In this document: one piece after another, positions 12,501-61,200 of the stretch
Position numbering within the stretch: the stretch's first letter is position 1
Layout: each line of letters begins with the position of its first letter
Assembly (NCBI GenBank): GCA_964035545.1
Contig: OZ037773.1
Coordinates: forward strand, 1,322,751-1,386,750
Direction: 5' to 3'
Length of the DNA stretch: 64,000 bases
Source: Bugula neritina
Taxonomy: Eukaryota; Bryozoa; Gymnolaemata; Cheilostomatida; Bugulidae
Notes under the pieces: model-generated
What the model saw: only the letters and a program-made list of their open reading frames with translations
Databases searched by the model: none
Told to the model about the DNA's origin: nothing
Program-made: the position numbers and the translations under genes

Positions 12501-15500
12501 CTATATGGTGTATTCTTATATCATTGTATTATCTATTATATTGTATTACTATATTGTATTATTACTATGTTTTATTATCTTACTGCATTATTTTTGAGAC
12601 AATGTCAAGTGGTGGGACTACATGTGACATTGACATAGGTTGGTATCCCGGACCAGGATGTGACCACCCCCCTCCCCCCAAGTTGTCAGCTGACAGATGT
12701 TGCATAATATTTTGTTGTGAAATTAATTCAGTAATTTAGTTTGGCTGAATTAACAGAACCTGGTATTATGCCATTAATCAAGCTCTTAGTGTATTCTAAC
12801 ACTTTGGCAACCATCCTGAACTCAACTCTTGTGGAAGTTATTAAATGACATTTTTTATGGTACAGGCTTAATTTTTTATTTCCCTTTTCCTTACTGCCTA
12901 ATTGGTGGCTGGTCACTCCTGAGATACCACAGTCGTCCCAGTCTAATATACTAATAGATATATATATACACTTATCATGTCTAATATACTACTAGATATA
13001 CATATATACACTTACCATGTCTAATATACTACTAGATACACTTACCATGTATAATATACTACTAGATATACATATATACACTTACCATGTCTAATATACT
13101 ACTAGATACACTTACCATGTATAATATACTACTAGATATACTTGCCATGTCTAATATAATACTATATATATACACTTACCATGTCTAATATACTACTAGA
13201 TACACTTACCATGTCTAATATACTACTAGATATACTTGCCATGTCTAATATACTACTAGATATACTTACCATGTCTAATGTGCTACTAGATATACTTACC
13301 ATGTCTAACACACTACTAGATATACATACACTTGCAGGCCCCTCTGTCACCACGGTGCTGCATGCTCTCACCATGTCTAACGCCGGAGACTTCATCAACC
13401 TGGAGAGGTTGGAGACGGTAGGCGACTCCTTCCTCAAGTTTGCCGTCACCCTTTACCTCTTCTGTACTCACCCCGGGCTACACGAGGGGAGACTCAGCTA
13501 TGGCAGGGGCAAGCAGGTGAGTTCCTGTTTACATATTCATCTGTTGAGTATATAGTGTAGTGTATGTAGTGTTGAGTATGTCCAGTTGCTGATAGACTGA
13601 GTTTCTCTATAGAAAACTACCTCTTCAGCACCCAGGCTAGCTGTTGGATCTTTGTATACCGTCACAACTTGACCTTTAACCTTTTTCCTAAGTGAATTAA
13701 CTTTTTCTGCTGCTGTCTGGCTAACCCAGTGATTCCCAACCTAGGAGGGGGGCGTATGGGCTTTTCAGGGGGGGGGGTTCATTTCTAGAAGTTTCAAGCA
13801 AATTTTAAACAGCTTTTTGAGCTCCTTTCTTGTTTTCCACTCGCTACAGTACTTGTAAACATGTAGTCCTTTTATGTGAATTCTTTTATTTATTCAGCTA
13901 CATTTTGCAATCTAAGCCTACTTTTACATACATGTGTCTAATATTCACTCTACTGGAACTGCTACATGCTCTACTGCGACTGGAAGTTAAAAAGCAAAAA
14001 CCAACAGGAACTTGTAGCAGTAATGCAAGCTAGTTTCTATAAAGCATTAATGCTTTCAAAGTTAAACTGACGTTGTGACAGGCACAAGTCTGTATCGAAA
14101 ATTCCCTGGCGCAATAAATTAATAGTAAAAGAGCCTGTTCCAGATTCCCTTTCAAAAAACATTTCTGCGAATTTCTTTAAACTCTTAACTAGAGCTGTCT
14201 TCAAAAAAAGAGTTACATGAGGATTTCATTTAGCTGGTTAGCAGTGAAGGAAGATTTAATAAAAACATGTTTCCACTTAGAAAACTCTACCCACGCATTG
14301 CTGACAATGCACTAAAAAATTTAGGATCTTACAGCACAACCTAACACTAACAATTAATAATAAGAAAATAAATTGCCTTGACCTGCTAAGTGACCTAAAG
14401 TATGCTTGTCAAAATTAGAGCCAGCCATCGCACACTATTTATTGAACTGCTCCATGTTGTATACATTCCTAATATATACTTGTATTGTATATTATGTCCG
14501 TCAAATAGATTGAGCTTTTAGAAAGAGGAAAATTAATAATGAACATTTATGAAAGGAGGTAATTGTATGAAGAAAGTTGGGAACCACTGGGCGAACATCC
14601 AACATGTTTTTTAGTTTTGTATTGATGTTTTACTCTAAACTACAGGCAAATGCAAAAGCCATGGCTTAATTGCAGTTTTGCTGCTGCTGCTGCAATATTC
14701 AGAGAAGGCATTTGGTGTGGAAGGTAGACGTGTTTGTGTTCTTCACAGATGCAATACGTGGGGGGGGCACATGAGGCCCTAGTCTGTGGTAGTTCTCTAT
14801 AGTCCCATAGGCTAAATCATTTTTGAAGTGGGGCCAATGAATTTAAATAAAATATTATATAATCTCATCAAATTTCAATCAAACTGTTAAAATATTGTCA
14901 AAGTCTATGGAAGTTGTTGAAATGGAAGAGAATATGCATCTCATGGATTTACGTCACGACTATTATTCACTGGTTTGAAGCATTTTTTCGTTAAATTAAC
15001 ACAAAATAGTTGAAAGTTTCATTGAAGAAGGTGACATTTTGGCAGAGGTCTGCCATGTTGCCAGCAGATTTGAATATTTCAGCTGCAAACCTGGGAAGTA
15101 TTTTGGCAGTCGAGTTAAGAAAATTGCATAATAAGCGGTGCAGGGCCTGGGCTCTGGTCTTCCACTTCATCATTTGTCACCTTTTTTGTAATTTTCATCT
15201 GAAACATCAATTTCCCGGGTTTGCAATTTCATGTAAAGCAAGCCTTATGTGCATAATTTTGAATGGTTTAGTTTGAATGTAAGATTCATTCATTCTCCTT
15301 CCCTTTGCCCTAAGACCAATTACACTAAGGCTACATAAAGTTAGGGGTTGTCTCCCTGTCTCTACTACCTAATTACTACTTTTACACTGAGAGTTTACTG
15401 AAGTTGTTATTAGTGTGTGACATATTATAGAGATTTCACTGTATTTCCTAATATTTCAGGGGAAAGCCATATCTGTAATAATGTTACTAAGTATGGTTAT

Positions 15501-21500: not shown

Positions 21501-24500
21501 CTGGGTATTGATGTGCTCCCCTCAAGGTATGCAGTGGGACTAGGGCTATGGTTTAAGCCTCAAGGCTATGCACTGTGCAATGTGTTGCACTTGCCAACTT
21601 TATACATAATTCAACAGCTTCTGTCATCTTTTGTAATTTTACTTTAGAATGTGCAGCTCCAATATACAATCTATAATTGAAATGAAATGCATCATTCAAT
21701 ATCAATGACTCATTTCATGTGCTGATGTTATATCACCTCACTTGCACCAACCCGCACCAGCCTTATTTGTTACTATATTTAGAATGTTGAGTGAGTGCCA
21801 GGTGTTGTGTCTGCTATTACTAATCCTATTAGATTCTATGACCAGGACAGTGTGCCATCTCCTCCCAGATTACTAAAATACCTTCTCTATTCCTCAAATT
21901 ATATATTATGTATTTACCTGTTTATCAACTACAGCAGCTTTCAATATGGTGTATGGCTTGTGTGAATTTATGTCATCCATTGCTCATTTCCCTGCTTATA
22001 CAACTTTGGAGCTAAAATTGGCAGAGATGACTCTGTGTATTTTAGGCAGCCTGAGGGTCGAGAGAGTGAGCCTCAGAGTCAAGAGAATGAGCCTGAGGTG
22101 TCTGAACTCGACTATGGATTCAAACTACCTCAACCCCCTCCCGGGCTCATCAAAGGAGGTGCTGAGGCTGAAAAGAAGTTGGCTAGGTTATTCACGGGTC
22201 TGGAGCAGTTTGAGGAGAGCATAGGCTACAAGTTCAAGGACAAAGCCTACTTGGTGCAGGCTTTTACTCATTCCAGTTACATACACAACAACGTGACGGA
22301 CTGCTACCAGAGGTGTGTCTATCTATCCACCACTCTAATCAGATATGGGGGGTGCCTTGTGCTTATCCACCACTGTAAGTGTGTGTCATAGGGTACTTTG
22401 TCTGTATCCACCACTGTGTATATTAAGAGATTCTTTGTAATGTGTATCCACCACTGTGTATATTAAGAGATTCTTTGTGATGTGTATACGACACTGTTAC
22501 AGACTGGAGTTCCTGGGAGATGCTGTTCTAGACTACGTAATAACCAGACGGCTGTTTGAAGACAAGAGGAAGCATTCACCAGGAGTTCTCACTGACCTCC
22601 GGTATGACCTTGAACTCTGCATAACACATCCTGTCACCTCACTGTAGTGTGTACCTCACTGTAGTGTATACTGTCACCTCACTGTAGTGTATACTGTCAC
22701 CTCACTGTAGTGTGTACTGTTACCTCACTGTAGTGTGTACTGTCACCTCACTGTAGTGTATACCTCACTGTAGTGTATACCTCACTCTAGTGTGTACCTC
22801 ACTGTAGTGTATACCTCACTGTAGTGTGTACCTCACTGTAGTGTGTACCTCACTGTAGTGTGTACTGTTACCTCACTGTAGTGTGTACTGTCACCTCACT
22901 GTAGTGTGTACTGTCACCTCACTGTAGTGTATACCTCACTGTAGTGTGTACTGTATACTGTAGTGTATACTGTCACCTCACTGTAGTGTGTACTGTATAC
23001 TGTAGTGTATACTGTATACTGTAGTGTATGCTGTATACTGTAGTGTATACTGTATACTGTAGTGTATGCTTGCTGTTGCAGGTCTGCTTTAGTAAACAAC
23101 AATGTGTTTGCTGCCCTTGCAGTAAAGTGGAACTTCCACAAGTACGTCAAGTGCCTCTCCACGCACATGCTCACTGGCATACACAGGTTCGTACAGCACC
23201 AGAAAGCAAGGGGAGACAAGATACAAGCTGAACAGGTAGGCAGGTTCTGTGCTCTGTTATGATGTAATATATTATGTCATGCAGGATACTAGGTTACGTA
23301 ATGTGATGTAATATCTAATAGTACTTGAACTGGAGTTGGCAGAAATTCATGCACTTATGTTTTATTGTTATATTTATATAGATGTGGAAGGAACTCTGTG
23401 TGTCACACCATATTGTAATATATTGTATTGCACTGTATTTTATTATATTGTATTCTACTACATTTTATTGTGTATTGCACTGTATTACATTGCATGTTAT
23501 TGTATTGTGTTATGGTGTATTTCTCATTGACTTATATAATCAAGTCAACAGACCCTGGTGTAAAATATATTGACTTTACATTACAAAGCATAGCCTGTCT
23601 ATTTGTTTGGGCTTATGCTAACCCCTCCCCAACTGTTACATTATAGTACCTCAGACTGAGTGATGAGGGGGAGAGCGATGAGGAAGTGGAGATACCGAAG
23701 GTGCTCGGTGATATATTTGAGTCGGTGGCTGGGGCCATCTACATCGACAGCGGCATGTCTCTAGACGCGACGTGGCGGGTTTACTTCCCTCTCATGCGGC
23801 AGCAGATTGGTGAGTACAGTATTCCCTCTTCAGTTTCCCAAAGGATGATAACTCCATGTCTGTCAGTTGATAAACAAGTAGGGCTTGTTGTTACACTCTA
23901 TTATTCCAGAACATTCCATACCAACATTTCATACACAGATCACATGTTGCTTGTAATTACAAGTGCTTGATGAAATATGCACTGATGGCAAGTTGTTTCC
24001 TGGTACTGGTTATTTCATTCCTCCCTCAAGTATGATACATTCTGAGTCACATATCACTGCTGGTCATCTGTAGAATATATCATATCACTGCTGGTCATCT
24101 GTAGAATATATCATATCACTGCTGGTCATCTGTAGAATAATCACTGCTGGTCATCTGTAGAATATATCATATCACTGCTGGTCATCTGTAGAATATATCA
24201 TATCGCTGCTGGTCATCTGTAGAATATATCATATCGCTGCTGGTCATCTGTAGAATATATCATATCACTGCTGGTCATCTGTAGAATATATCATATCGCT
24301 GCTGGTCATCTGTAGAATATATCATATCACTGCTGGTCATCTGTAGAATATATCATATCACTGCTGGTCATCTGTAGAATATATCATATCACTGTGCCTT
24401 GTAACTGTGGTTAAACTTTTCAGTGTATTTATCTTTCAGTGAGGTTCAGTAAACACATACCCATGTCTCCAGTTCGGGAACTTCTGGAGAGAGAACCAGA

Positions 24501-25013
24501 AACGGCCAAGTTTCAGTGAGTACCAGACCTGTACTAGAGATCAGTGAAAGCTAATTGATCTCTCTCTTGATGTGTTAGTATGTCTGTCTGTGTGTGATGT
24601 GTGTCGGACACATTATAAACCTAACAGTCTTCTAAACAGCTGTTTATACTCTTGTCTGTATCACACTATACTACTGTATGTATCACACTATACTACTGTA
24701 TGTATCACACTATACTACTGTATGTATCACACTATACTACTGTATGTATCACACTATACTACTGTATGTATCACACTATACTACTGTATGTATCACACTA
24801 TACTACTGTCTGTGTCACACTATACTACTGTATGTGTCGGACATGAATTTGTATGCTTGCAGACGCCCCGAGAGAACTAAAGATGGAAGAGCCAGGGTTA
24901 GTGTGACTGTAGCTGGGAAGGACACCTGGTGGGGAGTTGGGCGGAGTTATCGAATAGCCAAGTCTGCTGCGGCTAAAAAGGCTTTAATGGCTCTCAATGC
25001 AATGGAGAGTTGA
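559..25013 (+). CDS. DICER1: Dicer endoribonuclease, 26 exons, 5' part outside window
   Basis: Dicer cuts double-stranded RNA or pre-miRNA hairpins into small RNAs, mainly in the cytoplasm. The exons, chained by matching phase, are 559-668, 928-1084, 1316-1468, 1679-1875, 2092-2193, 2397-2536, 3691-3820, 4122-4197, 4800-4945, 5056-5232, 5615-5825, 5921-6079, 6168-6339, 6697-6927, 7616-7815, 8459-8635, 13338-13516, 20388-20523, 21203-21306, 21417-21526, 22046-22312, 22503-22601, 23082-23235, 23647-23809, 24440-24515 and 24863-25013 (TGA). Together they encode about 1,324 residues in animal Dicer order: helicase-C, dimerisation domain, platform/PAZ, acidic linker, RNase IIIa, RNase IIIb, dsRBD. 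The first exon carries STPKVRKL, which in human Dicer precedes helicase-C, so the DExD half lies upstream. All RNase III carboxylates are present. Exon edges were predicted by eye; the chain is strongly supported because all phases match. Confidence 0.95.
1085..1262 (+). repeat. 20-bp minisatellite in Dicer intron
   Basis: About eight copies of GTGTGACATCATAGTATATA-type units beginning within a few bases of the donor at 1085 and filling most of the 231-bp intron. Confidence 0.85.
1464..1570 (+). repeat. 30-bp repeat duplicating a Dicer 5' splice site
   Basis: Four exactly 30-bp-spaced copies of exon end plus donor, GATTG then GTCAGT or GTTAGT. The GT dinucleotides lie at 1469, 1499, 1529 and 1559. 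The annotated donor is the first; use of a later one would read into an in-frame TAA about 10 bases after 1468. Confidence 0.85.
2225..2395. repeat. Degenerate AT-rich repeat filling Dicer intron
   Basis: Decayed units of the type TGTGTTAGTATATA and ACACTACTATATGTATAAG occupy the intron between exons 2092-2193 and 2397-2536, ending close to the acceptor. Confidence 0.6.
2753..3575. repeat. 17-bp minisatellite in Dicer intron
   Basis: About 48 copies of a 17-bp unit, GTAGTAGTTACAGTGAC with variants, fill most of the 1.15-kb intron between exons 2397-2536 and 3691-3820. Confidence 0.9.
4198..4790. repeat. 22-bp minisatellite filling a Dicer intron
   Basis: About 27 copies of a 22-bp unit containing ACTGTAGTACTAGTGTAG begin directly at the donor (GTAAATACTGTAG) and run to within about 10 bp of the acceptor at 4799. 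The intron is essentially all repeat. Confidence 0.9.
6345..6675. repeat. ~44-bp minisatellite filling a Dicer intron
   Basis: About seven copies of a roughly 44-bp unit containing CTCTAGAGGTACTTGTATG followed by TATACAGTATGTACA occupy nearly the whole intron between exons 6168-6339 and 6697-6927. Confidence 0.85.
6928..7615 (+). other. Dicer intron, no feature seen
   Basis: This AT-rich intron follows exon 6697-6927 (ends AG, donor GTCTGT) and precedes the acceptor TTTTTTTGTAG at 7615. I see no gene, repeat array or mobile element in it. Confidence 0.5.
7616..8635 (+). other. DICER1: Dicer acidic linker exons between PAZ and RNase IIIa
   Basis: Two exons, 7616-7815 and 8459-8635, join in phase (codon AAG across the splice). 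They encode a poorly conserved, Asp/Glu/Asn/Gln-rich segment including [20 protein letters not shown]. Such linkers are variable and probably disordered in animal Dicers. Exon membership rests on splice sites and phase rather than on homology. Confidence 0.75.
8678..8895 (+). mobile_element. tRNA-derived SINE, copy 1
   Basis: The head has a tRNA-like A box (TGGTCTAGGGGTTAGAGC) and B box (GGATTTGAACCC) about 45 bp apart. It is followed by a non-tRNA body with ATCCAGTCATAATTGCTC, AACAAGTCCTTAG and GGGTTTCTCACAGGGATG. A second, diverged copy of the same body and head at 32672-32905 shows that this is a dispersed family. The copy lies in the Dicer intron after exon 8459-8635. Confidence 0.8.
9795..10235. 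repeat. 14-bp minisatellite in Dicer intron
   Basis: About 31 copies of a 14-bp unit ACACTGACATATAT with C/G variants, within the 4.7-kb intron 8636-13337. Confidence 0.9.
10503..10650. repeat. 14-bp GTACAGTACTAGTG-type repeat
   Basis: About ten alternating units of GTACAGTACTAGTG and GTACAGGACTAGTG. The units are rich in the palindromes GTAC and ACTAGT. Confidence 0.8.
11770..11850. repeat. Short 23-bp repeat, three copies
   Basis: Three copies of a unit containing ACCACCTGCTGTCACATTAA in the long Dicer intron. The rest of 10650-12200 shows no recognisable gene. Confidence 0.7.
12206..12360. repeat. ~30-bp tandem repeat in Dicer intron
   Basis: Five copies of a unit containing TAATCTCTGTTAGCCTGAGC or TAATCTCAGTTAGCCTTAGC, with small length variation in the CTCTCTCT part. 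Confidence 0.8.
12940..13330. repeat. Compound minisatellite before the RNase IIIa exon
   Basis: Units of CATGTCTAATATACTACTAG followed by ATACACTTAC, in short and long forms, run up to the acceptor CACTTGCAG of exon 13338-13516. Many units end with ATACACTTAC or ATACTTGCC, resembling the true acceptor region ACACTTGCAG. Confidence 0.85.
13727..14589. mobile_element. hAT-type transposon relic
   Basis: Inverted ends CAGTGATTCCCAACCTAGG (13727) and AAGTTGGGAACCACTG (ending 14589) match the CAGTGGTTCCCAACC termini common in hAT elements. The flanking octamers GGCTAACC and GGCGAACA resemble a decayed 8-bp target duplication. No intact transposase is seen; a G-run and an AT-rich interior remain. 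Confidence 0.7.
14590..18063. other. Dicer intron interior, no gene supported
   Basis: About 3.5 kb of AT-rich sequence with short weak ORFs on both strands, a partial CAGCATAGTGTGAGTTACTC duplication near 15950-16030, and a CTCACTGTCCCAGTTACT-type short repeat at 17810-17890. I see no exon chain, RNA gene or mobile element that I can defend. Confidence 0.5.
18064..18069 (-). promoter_or_regulatory. Poly(A) signal of nested GTPase gene
   Basis: TTTATT on the plus strand reads AATAAA on the minus strand, about 285 bp after the GTPase stop codon. Confidence 0.55.
18354..19491 (-). CDS. Atypical Rho-like small GTPase nested in Dicer intron
   Basis: There are two exons, 19272-19491 and 18354-18841, with GTAAGA donor, TTATTGCAG acceptor and phase 1, encoding 235 residues. 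The P-loop [11 protein letters not shown] followed by SYTTN is Rho/Rac-like. The stretch [13 protein letters not shown] supplies the G4 base-recognition motif and ESSA the G5 motif. The G3 motif DTAGQE is replaced by DTNCTD, so the catalytic glutamine is absent. The Rho insert region is short, and the C terminus ends in IYTKTK without a CAAX box. An N-terminal extension of about 30 residues precedes the G domain. It is probably a GTPase-poor switch or scaffold like other atypical Rho proteins (inference). A TATA box at 19596 and a poly(A) signal at 18064 suggest an independent transcription unit antisense to Dicer. Confidence 0.85.
19596..19603 (-). promoter_or_regulatory. TATA box for nested GTPase
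   Basis: The minus strand reads GGGTATAAAAG about 105 bp upstream of the GTPase start codon, at a suitable distance for a short 5' UTR. Confidence 0.65.
20153..20340. repeat. ~10/11-bp GTATAGCAGAG repeat
   Basis: Degenerate units of GTATAGCAGAG and GTGTAGCACAT occupy the end of the long Dicer intron, about 50 bp before the acceptor at 20387. Confidence 0.75.
20530..20860. repeat. TAGTTATAGTAACTAC repeat with inverted units
   Basis: Units TAGTTATAGTAACTA and GTAGTTACTATAACTA occur on both orientations, giving local hairpin potential, directly after the donor at 20524. Confidence 0.8.
22620..23080. repeat. Minisatellite filling a Dicer intron
   Basis: Units of ACCTCACTGTAGTGTGTACT, with CTGTCACC and CTGTATA variants, fill nearly the entire intron between the two RNase IIIb exons 22503-22601 and 23082-23235. 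Confidence 0.9.
24050..24390. repeat. 31-bp minisatellite in Dicer intron
   Basis: About eleven very similar copies of a 31-bp unit with CTGCTGGTCATCTGTAGAAT followed by ATATCATATC, indicating recent amplification. Confidence 0.9.
24652..24835. repeat. 22-bp minisatellite in last Dicer intron
   Basis: About eight copies of a 22-bp unit containing TGTATGTATCACACTATACT, nearly identical to each other. Confidence 0.9.
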
Positions 25014-38900: not shown

Positions 38901-40171
38901 AAATTGATAACTACAAATGATCTTGGCAACAATTCTAAGTTAGTAGCGTAAATGATTGTTTTGAGTATAATTACCTGTATTGTTGTGATTTTCAAGCTTG
39001 AACGCTAAAGATAAAGATTAAGTTCAGCATTTATCACCAAAAGGGCAAAACAGCTCAGTAACTTAAAAGCTAACTTTGGATGGAACACGATGAAAAACTA
39101 AAACTAGCCTTCGATCTTAAATACGATGCTTCTGACAATACGAACAAAGAGGTGTAAGCTAAATTTATTTGATAAAAAGAAAATTTGCAAGATCTCACGC
39201 TATGAAAATGACTAAAATTGTCTTCTTTCTTTAATTGATAACTTCGCAATTTTTTCATCATTTAAAAAGTTGAAAGCCTTAGTTACCAACTTTAAATGCA
39301 ATTTTAGAGCTGAAGGAATCATCAAATGCCTACGAAAGTATGATTTTTGAAATCCTTGGATTTTTTTGTATTAGAATAGTTCAAAATCTAAAAATTGGAA
39401 ACTAATTTCAAATTTAAGTATTTCCAAATTAAACCTTCATTTACTACACTTTATAAACGCCGCCACATCCCCGGTTTTGTCGCGACTGGTCACATATTTG
39501 CAACGAGCCAGTCTATTCAATGTGAAGTTATGCTCTTTGTATTATAATGTAGGGGAGCATAAGTGCTCAAGTTATTTGAAATATATAAATTGTGTTCTTG
39601 TATTCACAAAGACGCTTTGTTTATAGACCAACTTCTTCTAAATTTCTTTGTTGTGCTTCTATATTTATGTTAAATTATCAATATATAACCTACATGTAGG
39701 TTATATATTTAAATTAATATATATATACATTTAAATATATCTTTACGGCTAGCAATTTGATTGAAAATAAGTAAACGAGAAATGTTTTGTTTTTATTACT
39801 TTATTAATTAAAGTAAAATGATATTTCAATCACCACTGTGTAAGTACATTGGTGACTGAAATATAAGTTTACCTTGATTAATAAAATGGTGAAAGCAAAA
39901 TGTTTCTCGTTTACTTATTTGTCGTATGTATGTATGTGTTCAAAGGGTGTGTATGTGCCTGTGTTATATATGTACATTTAAATTGGCTTTATTCTGTGTT
40001 GAAATGTTTTAGGAAGAGTGTGCTATATGTCTCAATGAAATGAATATTACTGGAAAAAATCACAAACTACCTTGCCATCACACATTTCATGAACATTGCA
40101 TAAAAATGTGGGCTAGGTATGATCGCACCTGCCCGCTTTGTAGACGAGAGTTTCGGGTCTTCGGTCTATGA
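35976..40171 (+). CDS. Small membrane-anchored RING-H2 protein, probable E3 ubiquitin ligase
   Basis: Three exons: 35976-36052, 36160-36250 and 40013-40171 (TGA), all phases matching, encoding 108 residues. Residues 5-23 (RLIAIGAVVIGGAAYMAWQ) form a transmembrane helix followed by KKR, favouring a cytosolic C terminus. Exon 3 is a RING-H2 finger: CAIC, then CHHTFHEHC, then CPLC, with spacing C-x2-C-x14-C-x1-H-x2-H-x2-C-x10-C-x2-C, which binds two zinc ions and recruits an E2 enzyme. The linker reads GGKPAYFVPGEDG. The start is the first ATG after an acceptor-like TTACAG at 35970, so a 5' UTR exon may lie upstream. The second intron, 3.76 kb, contains two mobile elements. The subfamily was not recognised. 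Confidence 0.88.
36305..39498. mobile_element. ~3.2-kb terminal-inverted-repeat element in RING intron
   Basis: Left end AATATGTGACCTGGCACCAC and right end GTCGCGACTGGTCACATATT are imperfect inverse copies. Subterminal sequences also pair (CGCATTTAAAGTTGGCAAC on the left with ACCAACTTTAAATGC on the right), so the inverted repeats extend over 200 bp with divergence. The interior is very AT-rich without a recognisable transposase. No clear target duplication was seen. Confidence 0.7.
39767..39919. mobile_element. Foldback element, 153 bp
   Basis: Arms AATAAGTAAACGAGAAA and TTTCTCGTTTACTTATT continue inward through GATATTTCAATCACC and GGTGACTGAAATAT, giving a near-complete hairpin of about 65 bp per arm in the RING gene's second intron. 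Confidence 0.88.
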
Positions 40172-40559: not shown

Positions 40560-40565
40560 TTTATT
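40560..40565 (-). promoter_or_regulatory. Poly(A) signal of ten-cysteine protein gene
   Basis: TTTATT on the plus strand is AATAAA on the minus strand, about 305 bp beyond the stop at 40871. Confidence 0.6.
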
Positions 40566-40870: not shown

Positions 40871-41457
40871 TTAAGGTCGACAGAATCGGTCCAGTAAGTT
40901 TCTGACTTTGTAATCTCCTTCCAAACTCTTCAGCTCACCGCAAGGTACGACCATGTCTGCATCATACGGCCATGGGGTTGTTGGAGTTGTAGGTTTAGGG
41001 GTGGTTGTAGGTGGCACCCAACCTTCTGGCTTTATGTTGCATCTACCTGGTAGTTTAGTTTTAGAGCTATACTTTTAAAGTACATACGATAGCATATCTT
41101 TGATCTACTGTACTATACACATTACACTATGTAATTCTGTGTTATACATCACATTAAACTATTATATACACGCTGTATTACACTATGTTTCACTTTATTG
41201 CATTATGATATTAGACTGTACAGCACTATAATACTAAACTGTACTACACTATTGCATTGCATTCCATAGTGATGGAGTTGCCTCACCTTCTATGCACACA
41301 AGGCTCTCGGCACAACCACAACCTTTATATTCTTCCAGACCTGTTGGCTTGGCAGAGCAAGGTTCTCCCTGCAACCAGAATTATATTATTAAACTGTGAT
41401 ATATAACATATATAACATAATATATAAAACATCACTAGCTACACACACACACACACG

Positions 41458-41532
<75 letters not shown>

Positions 41533-43271
41533 TGCAATATACCATAAAAGTGTATATTAATAATTTATCACGAAATACATCTTGAGAAAGAAATCAATTA
41601 AAACAAAACTTGTGCCCTCTACATAGTATATACCTCTACATAGTATATCCCTCTACATAGTATATCCCTCTACATATTATATACCTATACATAGTATATC
41701 CCTATACATAGTATATCCCTCTACATAGTATATCCCTCTACATAGTATATCCCTCTACATAGTATATACCTCTACATAGTATATCCCTCTACATAGTATA
41801 TCCCTCTACATAGTATATCCCTCTACATAGTATATCCCTCTACATAGTATATACCTCTACATAGTATATCCCTCTACATAGTATATACCTATACATAGTA
41901 TATACCTCTACATAGTATATCCCTCTACATAGTATATCCCTCTACTTAGTATATACCTAATACCTATTGGCCTACAACGTTGTGTGGTAAGCATATGACA
42001 AAGTTCATACATGACAAAATAGTGCTCTTAGAGGTAAGCTTTTTCAACGTTACTGATTGGGTTACATTAAACCTCTCTAGTCTCTAGGGCCTAGACCAGG
42101 GCTGTCCAACAGGTGGCCCCAGGACCGAATGTGGCCCCCAGCCTACATTTATGCGGCCCTCAAAGGCATAACAGATAAAATTATTTTGCAGATGTATACG
42201 AGTTAGAGTGGGAAAACCACCTTTTAAATGCGTCTTATTTTTAAATAGGCCTATGCTAAAAACATGCATCCCAAGTAGCTATCAGGATAGATTTCATTGT
42301 GTAATGATTCATAGAAATTTATAATAAAGTTATTTAAAAATTACTTTAGATGTGGCTCCTAGCCCAAGCTAAATTTTGCAATGTGGCCCTCGCCATGAAA
42401 AGGTTAGACACCCCTGGCCCTAGACTATATGTAATAAACAATTTTTTTGTAGTACCTGGGAATACTCTAATATTTAGAGGAGGTAACTCTTACCACTTGG
42501 TTGTAAGGCAGGCATTTCTTGTTGTAAGAGTAATATGGAGCACCAATTTTAGCATTGCAACATTCTTCAGCTGTACAGCGGTTGTAGCAGCTGCATGTAG
42601 TAAAACATGTATTATATGCAGTACATATATGTAGTAAAACATGTATTATATGTAGTACATACATGTAGTAAAACATGTATTATATGCAGTACATATATGT
42701 AGTAAAACATATATTATATACAATGCATATATGTAGTTTATATATATTCAGCTACGCACATGACTCTACAGAAACCCTTGTATATGATAACTAGTTAATG
42801 GGGAACATAAAGCTATATATATTATATAAGTAATATAACACATATTATAATGCAGGTCTATATAAAAGCTTATATAGACAAGGAAATATATTATATATTC
42901 AACACATTACATCCTGGAAGATTACACATCAAGAGTTTAAACCATTGACTTCCACAGTCAGTTTGTAGCTCAGTTATACTAAAATGTTACATATTAATGA
43001 TTGCCAGCTTATTTTAAACTAGCAGTTTGGCTGTTGCATGCACGCAGCAAAATTCCTTGCAGCTTTTTTATAAGGCGGTATAACTACTTACTGCACATAA
43101 TTGAAAATTAAGCTAAAATAATATCGACTGAGACATACTTTACCACTAAGAGTGTAAATACTGGAGTTATGCACTCACTGTGACCTACCTCCACCCTGGC
43201 AGCAGAAGTGGGGCTGGACAGAGTTGAATTAGAGCAAAAAGTATTAATAGAATAGAACAGTAGGACTTCAT
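40871..43271 (-). CDS. Secreted ten-cysteine protein, prokineticin/Dickkopf-C2/colipase type
   Basis: Four exons, 43271-43189, 42590-42494, 41368-41287 and 41046-40871 (TAA), join with matching phases into 145 residues. Exon 1 encodes a signal peptide (MKSYCSILLILFALIQLCPA). The mature part has ten cysteines spaced C-x3-C-x4-CC-x14-C-x9-C-x12-C-x-C-x5-C-x4-C. This is the order seen in prokineticins, Dickkopf C2 domains and colipase, and the GEPC and CGCAESLVC stretches are typical. A Pro/Thr-rich tail (PPTTTPKPTTPTTPWP) and a last segment with two more cysteines (PCGELK and DRFCRP) follow. It is probably an extracellular ligand or modulator; receptor and role are unknown. No single ORF covers it, so it is easily missed. 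Confidence 0.82.
41440..41528. repeat. (CA)n microsatellite
   Basis: A CA tract with a few G interruptions near its start, in an intron of the ten-cysteine gene. Confidence 0.97.
41615..41960. repeat. 17-bp minisatellite in intron
   Basis: About twenty units of CCCTCTACATAGTATAT, with ACCTCTACATAGTATAT and ACCTATACATAGTATAT variants. Confidence 0.92.
42097..42416. mobile_element. Non-autonomous hAT element (MITE), 320 bp
   Basis: Ends CAGGGCTGTCCAAC and GTTAGACACCCCTG match hAT termini of the CAGGGGTGTCCAAC type. Subterminal GTGGCCCCAGGACC and AATGTGGCCCTCGCC are GC-rich inverse relatives. The flanks GCCTAGAC and GCCCTAGAC are consistent with an 8-bp target duplication with one indel. It lies in the intron between exons 2 and 3 of the ten-cysteine gene. 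Confidence 0.82.
42596..42730. repeat. ~34-bp tandem repeat
   Basis: Four copies of a unit containing TGTAGTAAAACATGTATTAT lie immediately upstream (in gene sense) of exon 2 of the ten-cysteine gene. On the sense strand the unit reads toward TACTACATGCAG, which resembles the true acceptor. Confidence 0.8.
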
Positions 43272-44497: not shown

Positions 44498-53302
<8,805 letters not shown>

Positions 53303-58235: not shown

Positions 58236-61200
58236 ATGGGTATGTTATTTCAGTTAATAATATTTGGGTATGTTATTTCAGTTAATAATATATTATAATG
58301 GGTATGTTATTTCAGTTAATAATATATGGGTATGTTGTTGGAATTAGATTATTAGTCAATTTATGTTGAATTATTCAGAATTATATTTCATTTATGCAAA
58401 CTATTATATAGCAATACATAATTTTGCTCCTAATTCACATTTTGGTTTCATAGCTAAAATATTAGTGCTGTCCTTAAATGATTTGTTTTAAAGTACATAC
58501 TAAACTAAGCGTTCTAATGAAAAACTGCTAAATAATTTCAATAATTGTTGATCACTGCTGCATGGTTGACACTCTTTATGTTCAAACTGTATTTAGTGGT
58601 TTTGTTGCTTCAGTTCATACTAAATTTAAAATATTAAAGTTTTGGCATATGAATTTATTATTTTGTTTATTTATTTATCATAATCTGAATACAAGTCATT
58701 TTATAAGTTATTTCGCAAGTTGTGTTACGTTTAAAATTTGATATCTTACATTAGTTGAAGATACTAGCATTGTATTGTTAAATCAACACTGCTATGATAT
58801 TTTGACTTTCTTCCACTTACTTACACTTGTGATTTATGTTCTGGTAATGTTTCTAGTTATATATTGTAATCCAAGTAACTATCAAAGAAAGCTTGTATTT
58901 TAGGTGTAAAGAAAGAAAGATCTTCGTTAATCATAGCCATAGGCCTGACCCTCTTGTCCTCCTGCATTGGTAAGTAAACTCAAAACCTACTACTTGTTAT
59001 TTTATACAGTATGCATCTGCAACTAGTTCAATAGAGAAAAGTTTAGTGATATGAAGTTGTAACAGAAACTATCTTTGTTGGTAATAGTCATTAGATGATA
59101 CTTCCTTTTGCATGAGCTAACGTTATTAGATTGTCGGCTAAGTGAATAACAGTTTGGAAAACAATAAAAAAACATTATTCTATTTAGTATGGGAATTATA
59201 TTGTAGAGTGAGCTTAATAGCAATTTGTGTAGCTTGGTGATGCATTGCAATAGTCTAGTAGATACTTTCACACAGCTTTTGTATAGCATTTTTATTATTT
59301 TTTGGTGTTTATTGAAAGGTTTTTGTATTGCAGTTGAAAGCAGCTGGTCTAATTGGTCGACCTTCTCTGCTTGTTCAACATCGTGTGGAGCTGGAGTCAA
59401 AACCAAAACTAGAGTATGCTCACCAGACTATTCATACTATGGTAAATCACCCTGTCCAGGATTGGCAGAAGCAACTGTTCCTTGCAATGTAGACGTTCCA
59501 TGCTCAGTTGATGGAGGATGGACTGCATGGACACCATATGGTGATTGTTCAGCCTCATGTGGTGGTGGAGAAAAGACAAGAACCAGAAGCTGTACCTATC
59601 CTGCACCAGCTCATGGAGGTGCCGATTGTGCTGGGTATAACAGTGAAAGCGTGTCTTGCAATGTAGGTGTTTCATGCCCAGTTGATGGAGAATGGACTGC
59701 TTGGACACCATATGGTGATTGCTCAGCCTCATGTGGTGGTGGAGAAAAGACAAGAACCAGAAGCTGTACCTATCCTGCACCAGCTCATGGAGGTGCCGAT
59801 TGTGCTGGATATAACAGTGAAAGCGTGTCTTGCAATGTAGATGTTTCATGCCCAGTTGATGGAGGATGGACTGCTTGGACACCATATGGTGATTGTTCAG
59901 CCTCATGTGGTGGTGGAGAAAAGACAAGAACCAGAAGCTGTACCTATCCTGCACCAGCTTATGGAGGTGCCGATTGTGCTGGATATAACAAGGAAAGCGT
60001 GTCTTGCAATGTAGATGTTTCATGCCCAGTTGATGGAGGATGGACTGCATGGACACCATATGGTGATTGCTCAGCCTCATGTGGTGGTGGAGAAAAGACA
60101 AGAACCAGAAGCTGTACCTATCCTGCACCAGCTCATGGAGGTGCCGATTGTGCTGGATATCTCAGTGAAAGCGTGTCTTGCAATGTAGATGTTTCATGCC
60201 CAGTTGATGGAGGATGGACTGCTTGGACACCATATGGTGATTGCTCAGCCTCATGTGGTGGTGGAGAAAAGACAAGAACCAGAAGCTGTACCTATCCTGC
60301 ACCAGTTTATGGAGGTGCCGATTGTGCTGGATATAACAAGGAAAGCGTGTCTTGCAATGTAGGTGTTTCATGCCCAGTTGATGGAGGATGGACTGCATGG
60401 ACACCATATGGTGATTGTTCAGCCTCATGTGGTGGTGGAGAAAAGACAAGAACCAGAAGCTGTACCTATCCTGCACCAGCTCATGGAGGTGCCAATTGTG
60501 CTGGGTATAACAGTGAAAGCGTGTCTTGCAATGTAGATGTTTCATGCCCAGTTGATGGAGGATGGACTGCTTGGACACCTTATGGTGATTGCTCAGCCTC
60601 ATGTGGTGGTGGAGAAAAGACAAGAACCAGAAGCTGTACCTATCCTGCACCAGCTTATGGAGGTGCCGATTGTGCTGGGTATAACAGTGAAAGCGTGTCT
60701 TGCAATGTAGATGTTTCATGCCCAGTTGATGGAGGATGGACTGCTTGGACACCATATGGTGATTGCTCAGCCTCATGTGGTGGTGGAGAAAAGACAAGAA
60801 CCAGAAGCTGTACCTATCCTGCACCAGCTCATGGAGGTGCCGATTGTGCTGGATATAACAGTGAAAGTGTGTCTTGCAATGTAGATGTTTCATGCCCAGT
60901 TGATGGAGGATGGACTGCATGGACACCATATGGTGATTGCTCAGCCTCATGTGGTGGTGGAGAAAAGACAAGAACCAGAAGCTGTACCTATCCTGCACCA
61001 GCTTATGGAGGTGCCGATTGTGCTGGGTATAACAAGGAAAGTGTGACTTGCAACGAGGATGTCCATTGTGCAGGTTTGTTTAATCTTTTTGTTGCATTCT
61101 GTTGATAGTTTTGTCAAAACTATTATTCATTCAGTGGTTTTGCACAAACAATTTAAATAATGGCTAAATTTCTATTGCAGTTGATGGAGGCTGGACAGAG

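Follow-up and report, generated by a model that had tools for sequence, protein, structure and literature searches.

A four-exon gene of the bryozoan Bugula neritina for a predicted secreted ten-cysteine protein, probably of the colipase fold class

The window, that is, the whole stretch of 64,000 nucleotides of Bugula neritina DNA analysed here, is contig C9:1322751-1386750; the labels C1 to C196 denote contigs of GCA_964035545.1 when preceded by the word contig, while Cys C1 to Cys C10 denote the core cysteines of the protein. On the minus strand of the window, four small exons (43271-43189, 42590-42494, 41368-41287 and 41046-40871) join in phase through GT-AG introns to encode a product of 145 aa, as an earlier note on this DNA had proposed. 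The features of the gene are listed below, with a slash at each splice junction.

43189..43271, minus strand: exon 1, with the start codon, the predicted signal peptide and residues as far as the last codon ahead of core Cys C1; phase 2 end; donor AG/GTAGGT.
42494..42590, minus strand: exon 2, with core Cys C1-C5 (C-x3-C-x4-CC-x14-C); phase 0 end; acceptor TACATGCAG/C, donor GTG/GTAAGA.
41287..41368, minus strand: exon 3, with core Cys C6-C9 (C-x12-C-x-C-x5-C); phase 1 end; acceptor GGTTGCAG/G, donor GAAG/GTGAGG.
40871..41046, minus strand: exon 4, with core Cys C10, the Pro/Thr-rich linker, the two-cysteine tail and the stop codon TAA; acceptor AACTACCAG/G.
40560..40565, minus strand: AATAAA as a possible polyadenylation signal (a string match only), some 300 bases downstream of the stop codon, with a tandem repeat in between.

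The three introns are 598, 1125 and 240 bases long and lie in phases 2, 0 and 1, with the donors AG/GTAGGT, TG/GTAAGA and AG/GTGAGG and the acceptors CATGCAG/C, GTTGCAG/G and CTACCAG/G. The product contains 14 cysteines, two in the signal peptide, ten in the core and two in the tail. The hydrophobic core of the signal peptide is ILLILFALIQL, and the highest Kyte-Doolittle mean over 11 residues is 3.18, compared to 1.52 after residue 30. From Cys C1 to Cys C10 the core gaps are 3-4-0-14-9-12-1-5-4, and the CC, C-x9-C and C-x-C-x5-C spacings named by the earlier note are all present, as are, in the spliced product, the signal peptide and the Pro/Thr-rich tail with two extra cysteines that it had described. 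A scan of the 145-aa product found no N-glycosylation site. Its sole paired basic site lies within the ten-cysteine core, which has a net charge near zero (8 K+R and 8 D+E).

Within intron 2, a stretch (42090-42430 and 41620-41960) that we take to resemble a dispersed hAT-type repeat adjoins a minisatellite of about 17 bases, as judged by eye. Several other features lie on the plus strand of the window. An exon at 40013-40168 looks RING-finger-like by eye, and its gene ends convergently with the ten-cysteine gene. A first exon at 44501-44584, which presumably resembles the N-terminus of NUSAP1, and a KSPSR repeat stretch at 52039-52488 possibly belong to one gene with long repeat-rich introns. 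A Dicer-like gene is represented by a ribonuclease III exon at 13181-13555, recognised by Pfam match, and by stretches at 22035-22391 and 24678-25013, recognised by eye, with no Pfam match for that at 22035-22391. Furthermore, an open stretch at 59225-61105 contains ten thrombospondin type 1 matches, several of these repeats being nearly identical.

A chain of open stretches could in principle look like a gene by chance. Third-order-Markov simulation of 2516 windows, searched on both strands, produced a loose two-exon pattern of nine cysteines 24 times, and the core pattern with exact spacing was found in 7 window-strands across 2878 simulated windows. When an in-phase signal exon (start codon, hydrophobic run and donor) was also demanded, just 1 of the 2878 simulated windows qualified; these patterns were designed after the gene had been seen, and the chance figures are therefore optimistic. 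The real window contains two minus-strand variants of the core with exact spacing and no plus-strand one, and adding the signal exon leaves a single chain, the four-exon gene. Synonymous codon choice also leans to host usage, trained on 2314 codons from 13 host kinase stretches, with 62 of 5000 synonymous randomisations scoring as high. For exons 2, 3 and 4 the top-scoring frame is in each case the predicted one (73rd, 98th and 94th percentiles), and jointly they rank at the 93rd percentile among 1224 stop-free stretches taken from the window. Exon 1 is unremarkable (38th percentile), and another of its frames, with three stops, scores higher. Overall, the frame scores are modest. A chance chain without a gene is also consistent with the unremarkable score of exon 1, with the lack of a homologue in a word-based search of 5.8 billion proteins and with the repeats within intron 2 and around the gene. 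However, the rarity of the core with a signal exon, the synonymous codon bias and the likeness beyond the cysteines to DKK2 and to a host paralogue, described below, make it very unlikely.

In Pfam searches of the full protein and of the core, no family matched either query at E<=10, and the DKK2, PROK1, PROK2 and colipase reference domains used as controls were all recognised (4/4). The prokineticin profile PF06607 gave no match to the 145-aa protein but matched PROK1 and PROK2; the Dickkopf C-terminal subdomain profiles PF21481 and PF21479 gave none but both matched DKK2; and the colipase profiles PF01114 and PF02740 gave none but both matched colipase. A Dickkopf_N or first cysteine-rich domain is absent from the gene model, which holds a single ten-cysteine module without a Pfam match, and the AVITGA motif at the N-terminus of the mature chain is absent from the product sequence. 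The HMM search that the earlier note had suggested returned no family at E<=10 and does not support membership of a named family. As no Pfam family matches, the protein, judged by its sequence, does not count among the filed prokineticins, Dickkopfs or colipases.

Similarity to known structures was sought among the 177,635 distinct sequences of the PDB. The best match of the core was the Dickkopf-2 C-terminal domain (2jtk), at a non-significant E=0.29, the only other match being a peptidoglycan-recognition protein (E=1.6), and for the whole protein the Dickkopf-2 C-terminal domain was the only match (E=2.6). The word-based protein search gave 22 candidates, none of them at E<=10. When the protein search was widened with a Dickkopf alignment, 445 of 501 candidates fell at E<=10; all 120 matches listed hold the standard C2, every one listed with an organism is from a vertebrate, and no invertebrate relative is among the matches listed. 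Likeness beyond the cysteines was measured by shuffling the core with its cysteines fixed, using PROK1, PROK2 and colipase reference letters that were checked by Pfam. Among 2000 shuffles, 1 scored as well against DKK2, 4 against DKK1, 34 against PROK2, 66 against PROK1 and 875 against colipase, and 18 did so against a five-sequence family profile. With 5000 shuffles the counts were 3 for DKK2, 183 for PROK1 and 2251 for colipase. The stretch aligned with known domains is mostly Cys C5-C9 and points to Dickkopf C2.

Of the core gaps, 5 of 9 equal those of the Dickkopf and prokineticin references and 4 of 9 equal those of colipase. Of the four gaps unlike the Dickkopf and prokineticin references, three are shorter or longer than in any of the five references: Cys C1-C2 (3, against 5 in all five), Cys C4-C5 (14, against 8-11) and Cys C9-C10 (4, against 9-17), the last of which may not leave enough length for the usual C8-C10 loop. 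With the second cysteine-rich domain (CRD-2) of Dickkopf 1/2/4 (PDB 2jtk), the protein has in common the ten-cysteine order, the gaps 4, 0, 9, 1 and 5 and the motif C-x-P-x(4)-GE-x-C ... GLE-x(4)-C-x-CA-x(2)-L-x-C. It differs in that the Bugula gene model lacks both the first Dickkopf domain and a Pfam match, and in the gaps C1-C2 (3, not 5), C4-C5 (14, not 8) and C9-C10 (4, not 16). Proteins of the prokineticin/astakine family (PF06607) are likewise small and secreted, with ten cysteines in equal order, but the Bugula protein has no Pfam match and no AVITGA and adds a Pro/Thr-rich tail with two cysteines. In the human PROK genes the signal peptide is on its own exon, as in the Bugula gene. 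The likeness to PROK1 beyond the cysteines is weak (183/5000).

The earlier note had placed the protein in a prokineticin/Dickkopf-C2/colipase type. The cysteine order, the 5 of 9 gaps and the likeness to DKK2 (3/5000) support this as a class, but a specific tie to prokineticin (PROK1, 183/5000) or to colipase (2251/5000) is not supported. Judged by these sequence features, the colipase/prokineticin/Dickkopf fold class is probably right. A secreted protein rich in cysteines with a different disulphide fold, whose colipase-like spacing arose by convergence, would account for the empty Pfam result, for the three gaps that match none of the five references in length and for the lack of likeness to colipase in the shuffle assay (2251/5000). 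We consider it unlikely, in view of the likeness beyond the cysteines to DKK2 and to a gene copy on contig C6, termed C6a (3 and 6 of 5000 shuffles, respectively), and of a genome that contains clearer colipase-type genes.

These genes emerged from searches of the 215,847,546 bases and 295 contigs of the assembly. The window protein itself found its own four exons only (4/4 matches), so that this search shows one copy of the gene. Profile searches gave sub-threshold matches, four for Dickkopf C-subdomain-2 and eight for Colipase_C, and the DNA at some of them holds colipase-type genes. Contig C6:7836500-7846400 carries two tandem copies, with one exon for Cys C1-C4 and another for C5-C10. At contig C7:2712976-2729619 there are at least four colipase-type copies (14 of 15 matches), one of which matches the later part of the query only. 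One spliced contig C7 copy, with splice sites picked by eye, encodes two ten-cysteine domains with gaps of 5-4-0-8-9-16-1-5-21 (C7D1) and 5-4-0-12-9-14-1-5-15 (C7D2), and Thr/Pro-rich linkers are present in both contig C7 copies that were read. Against the PDB, C7D1 matched Dickkopf-1 structures (E=9.3e-4) and a solved spider peptide (E=5.3e-5), and C6a matched no entry. As a group, the contig C6 and C7 genes come close to profiles or structures of the MIT-like and Dickkopf kinds.

In the cysteine-fixed shuffle assay (n=5000), 6 shuffles of the window core scored as well against C6a, 319 against C7D1 (weak likeness) and 1243 against C7D2 (none), and C6a was matched to C7D1 with 0 of 5000 shuffles as good. 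The likeness of C6a to the window protein covers the Cys C5-C9 stretch. The Pfam scores of the contig C7 genes and of C6a are also below the curated cut-offs, so the absent Pfam match of the window gene is not unusual for such genes here. All these genes have the ten-cysteine pattern with CC, C-x9-C and C-x-C-x5-C, but intron positions and phases differ: the contig C6 and C7 genes are split between Cys C4-C5 and the window gene between C5-C6, and the intron between Cys C9-C10 common to the window gene and C7D1 differs in phase. In addition, the contig C7 gene that was read has two domains, and C6a has 33 residues between Cys C4-C5.

Human DKK2 and PROK2 queries gave no matches in the host genome, nor did PF06607; absence of such genes is not thereby shown. 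Dickkopf_N gave 34 matches there, many of them on contig C8. One is above the cut-off, an exon within a run of cysteine-rich exons, and the 3.2 kb of DNA read at this place showed no clear C2-type exon. Two matches of Dickkopf subdomain 1 were rejected as chance, that on contig C101 being a retroelement by eye and that on contig C8 lying in a frame with two cysteines, and a scan of their wider loci for cysteine patterns found nothing convincing. Colipase_C or subdomain-2 matches on contigs C5, C2 and C3, and on contig C7 outside the cluster, were unrelated by eye.

The assembly also holds sequences of other kinds. Contig C6:11174072-11175412 is a near-identical nuclear copy of the COX1 region of the 15,248-base mitochondrial contig. 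By our own count, 15 of the 129 protein kinase matches listed in the assembly are stop-free. The remaining ones, nearly all on small contigs (for example contigs C58, C77, C133 and C188), have in-frame TAA or TAG, rarely TGA, a read-through pattern as in a ciliate with reassigned stops that may live with the bryozoan and whose DNA would have stayed in the assembly. Contig C17 contains an apparent bacterial cbb3-type oxidase subunit (by eye), and contigs C196 and C65 each match COX1 as well, in two pieces and with TGA codons; these three contigs are probably co-biont DNA.

As for function, the best similarity of the protein is to Dickkopf 1 and 2, which raises the possibility of a Dickkopf-C2-like Wnt antagonist that binds LRP5/6. 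In DKK1, the Cys C4-C5 stretch carries receptor contacts; in the Bugula protein this stretch is 14 residues long instead of 8 and unlike DKK1 in sequence, and neither Dickkopf C-terminal Pfam subdomain matches. The antagonist would resemble the Hydra Dkk genes without the first domain, CRD-1 being described as absent from Hydra dkk1/2/4 (PMC6425005), and Wnt pathway genes are reported to be expressed during Bugula metamorphosis (PMC3308966). Given the altered Cys C4-C5 stretch and the unmatched subdomains, we regard this role as quite improbable.

A peptide of host defence or protease inhibition is a somewhat better candidate, although still an unlikely one. Hydra NDA-1, described as taxon-restricted, has a signal peptide, a ten-cysteine module with a colipase-like model and a C-terminal piece (PMC5614986), comparable to the C-terminal extension of the Bugula protein, and the spider peptide NcTI inhibits trypsin with an MIT1-like fold (PMC9918498). 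The tandem arrangement of the contig C7 copies is also often seen in effector genes. However, NDA-1, compared here by description, is cationic while the Bugula core is near neutral, and only one copy of the window gene came up in the search of the assembly.

The reading we favour, with reasonable though not high confidence, is a real, divergent, single-domain colipase-fold gene of Bugula neritina, presumably expressed, whose secreted product is likeliest a soluble ligand or cytokine. The signal peptide would direct the chain to the secretory pathway. Five disulphides may then form among the ten core cysteines, C1-C4, C2-C5, C3-C7, C6-C9 and C8-C10, the pairing given for the colipase fold in PMC9918498, and so build two short fingers. 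In the tail, which would be mucin-like, the Pro/Thr-rich linker probably carries O-linked sugars, and the final pair of cysteines probably bonds to close a small sixth loop. Invertebrate prokineticin/astakine proteins have the ten cysteines in common, and in crayfish, shrimp and oyster they are reported to stimulate the production of haemocytes (PMC8398477). On this precedent, our best guess for the role, proposed tentatively and by analogy, is that of a soluble peptide acting outside the cell as a ligand or cytokine, in the manner of the invertebrate prokineticin/astakine proteins. More speculatively, and rather doubtfully as a whole, the window gene, the contig C6 pair and the contig C7 cluster may represent a bryozoan radiation of colipase-fold secreted peptides, in which the window gene would be a subtype with a short C9-C10 loop, a sixth disulphide in a mucin-like tail and a receptor unlike that of vertebrate prokineticin or Dickkopf.

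The earlier note had further supposed an early-branching animal, whose gene would bear on the origin of prokineticin and Dickkopf signalling. This idea was rejected: the mitochondrial contig has AGA/AGG at COX1 serine sites (by eye) and 23 tRNA genes (ARAGORN), its COX1 shows 100% identity with Bugula neritina across 99% of the query, and the host, Bugula neritina, belongs to Bilateria, Lophotrochozoa and Bryozoa. A study that included Ectoprocta described prokineticin-type precursors in nearly every lophotrochozoan phylum it sampled, Platyhelminthes being the exception, and the same source reports genes of prokineticin/Dickkopf type from cnidarians and a Dickkopf from the ectoproct Membranipora (PMC6425005). 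A report of 2013 describes a prokineticin precursor from an annelid (PMC3890597), and work on Xenoturbella aligns cnidarian, ecdysozoan, spiralian and chordate members (PMC11521371). Protostome dkk1/2/4 has since been called into question in a paper that names a dkk5 group (PMC11414264). AVITGA is described as a chordate feature that is missing from non-vertebrate members (PMC8398477, PMC11521371). Since the host is a lophotrochozoan and the type is already reported from cnidarians and lophotrochozoans, the gene is silent on the origin of prokineticin and Dickkopf; it is a divergent further member of an already known type. In the main text of a Bugula neuropeptide survey, no prokineticin, Dickkopf, colipase or astakine is named (PMC4990251). 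The peptide catalogue of the bryozoans is sparse, and the gene contributes to it a colipase-type secreted protein that is probably not yet listed. It also illustrates that short multi-exon genes of this family can escape profile and single-ORF searches, though the same genome has a tandem cluster of clearer ones.
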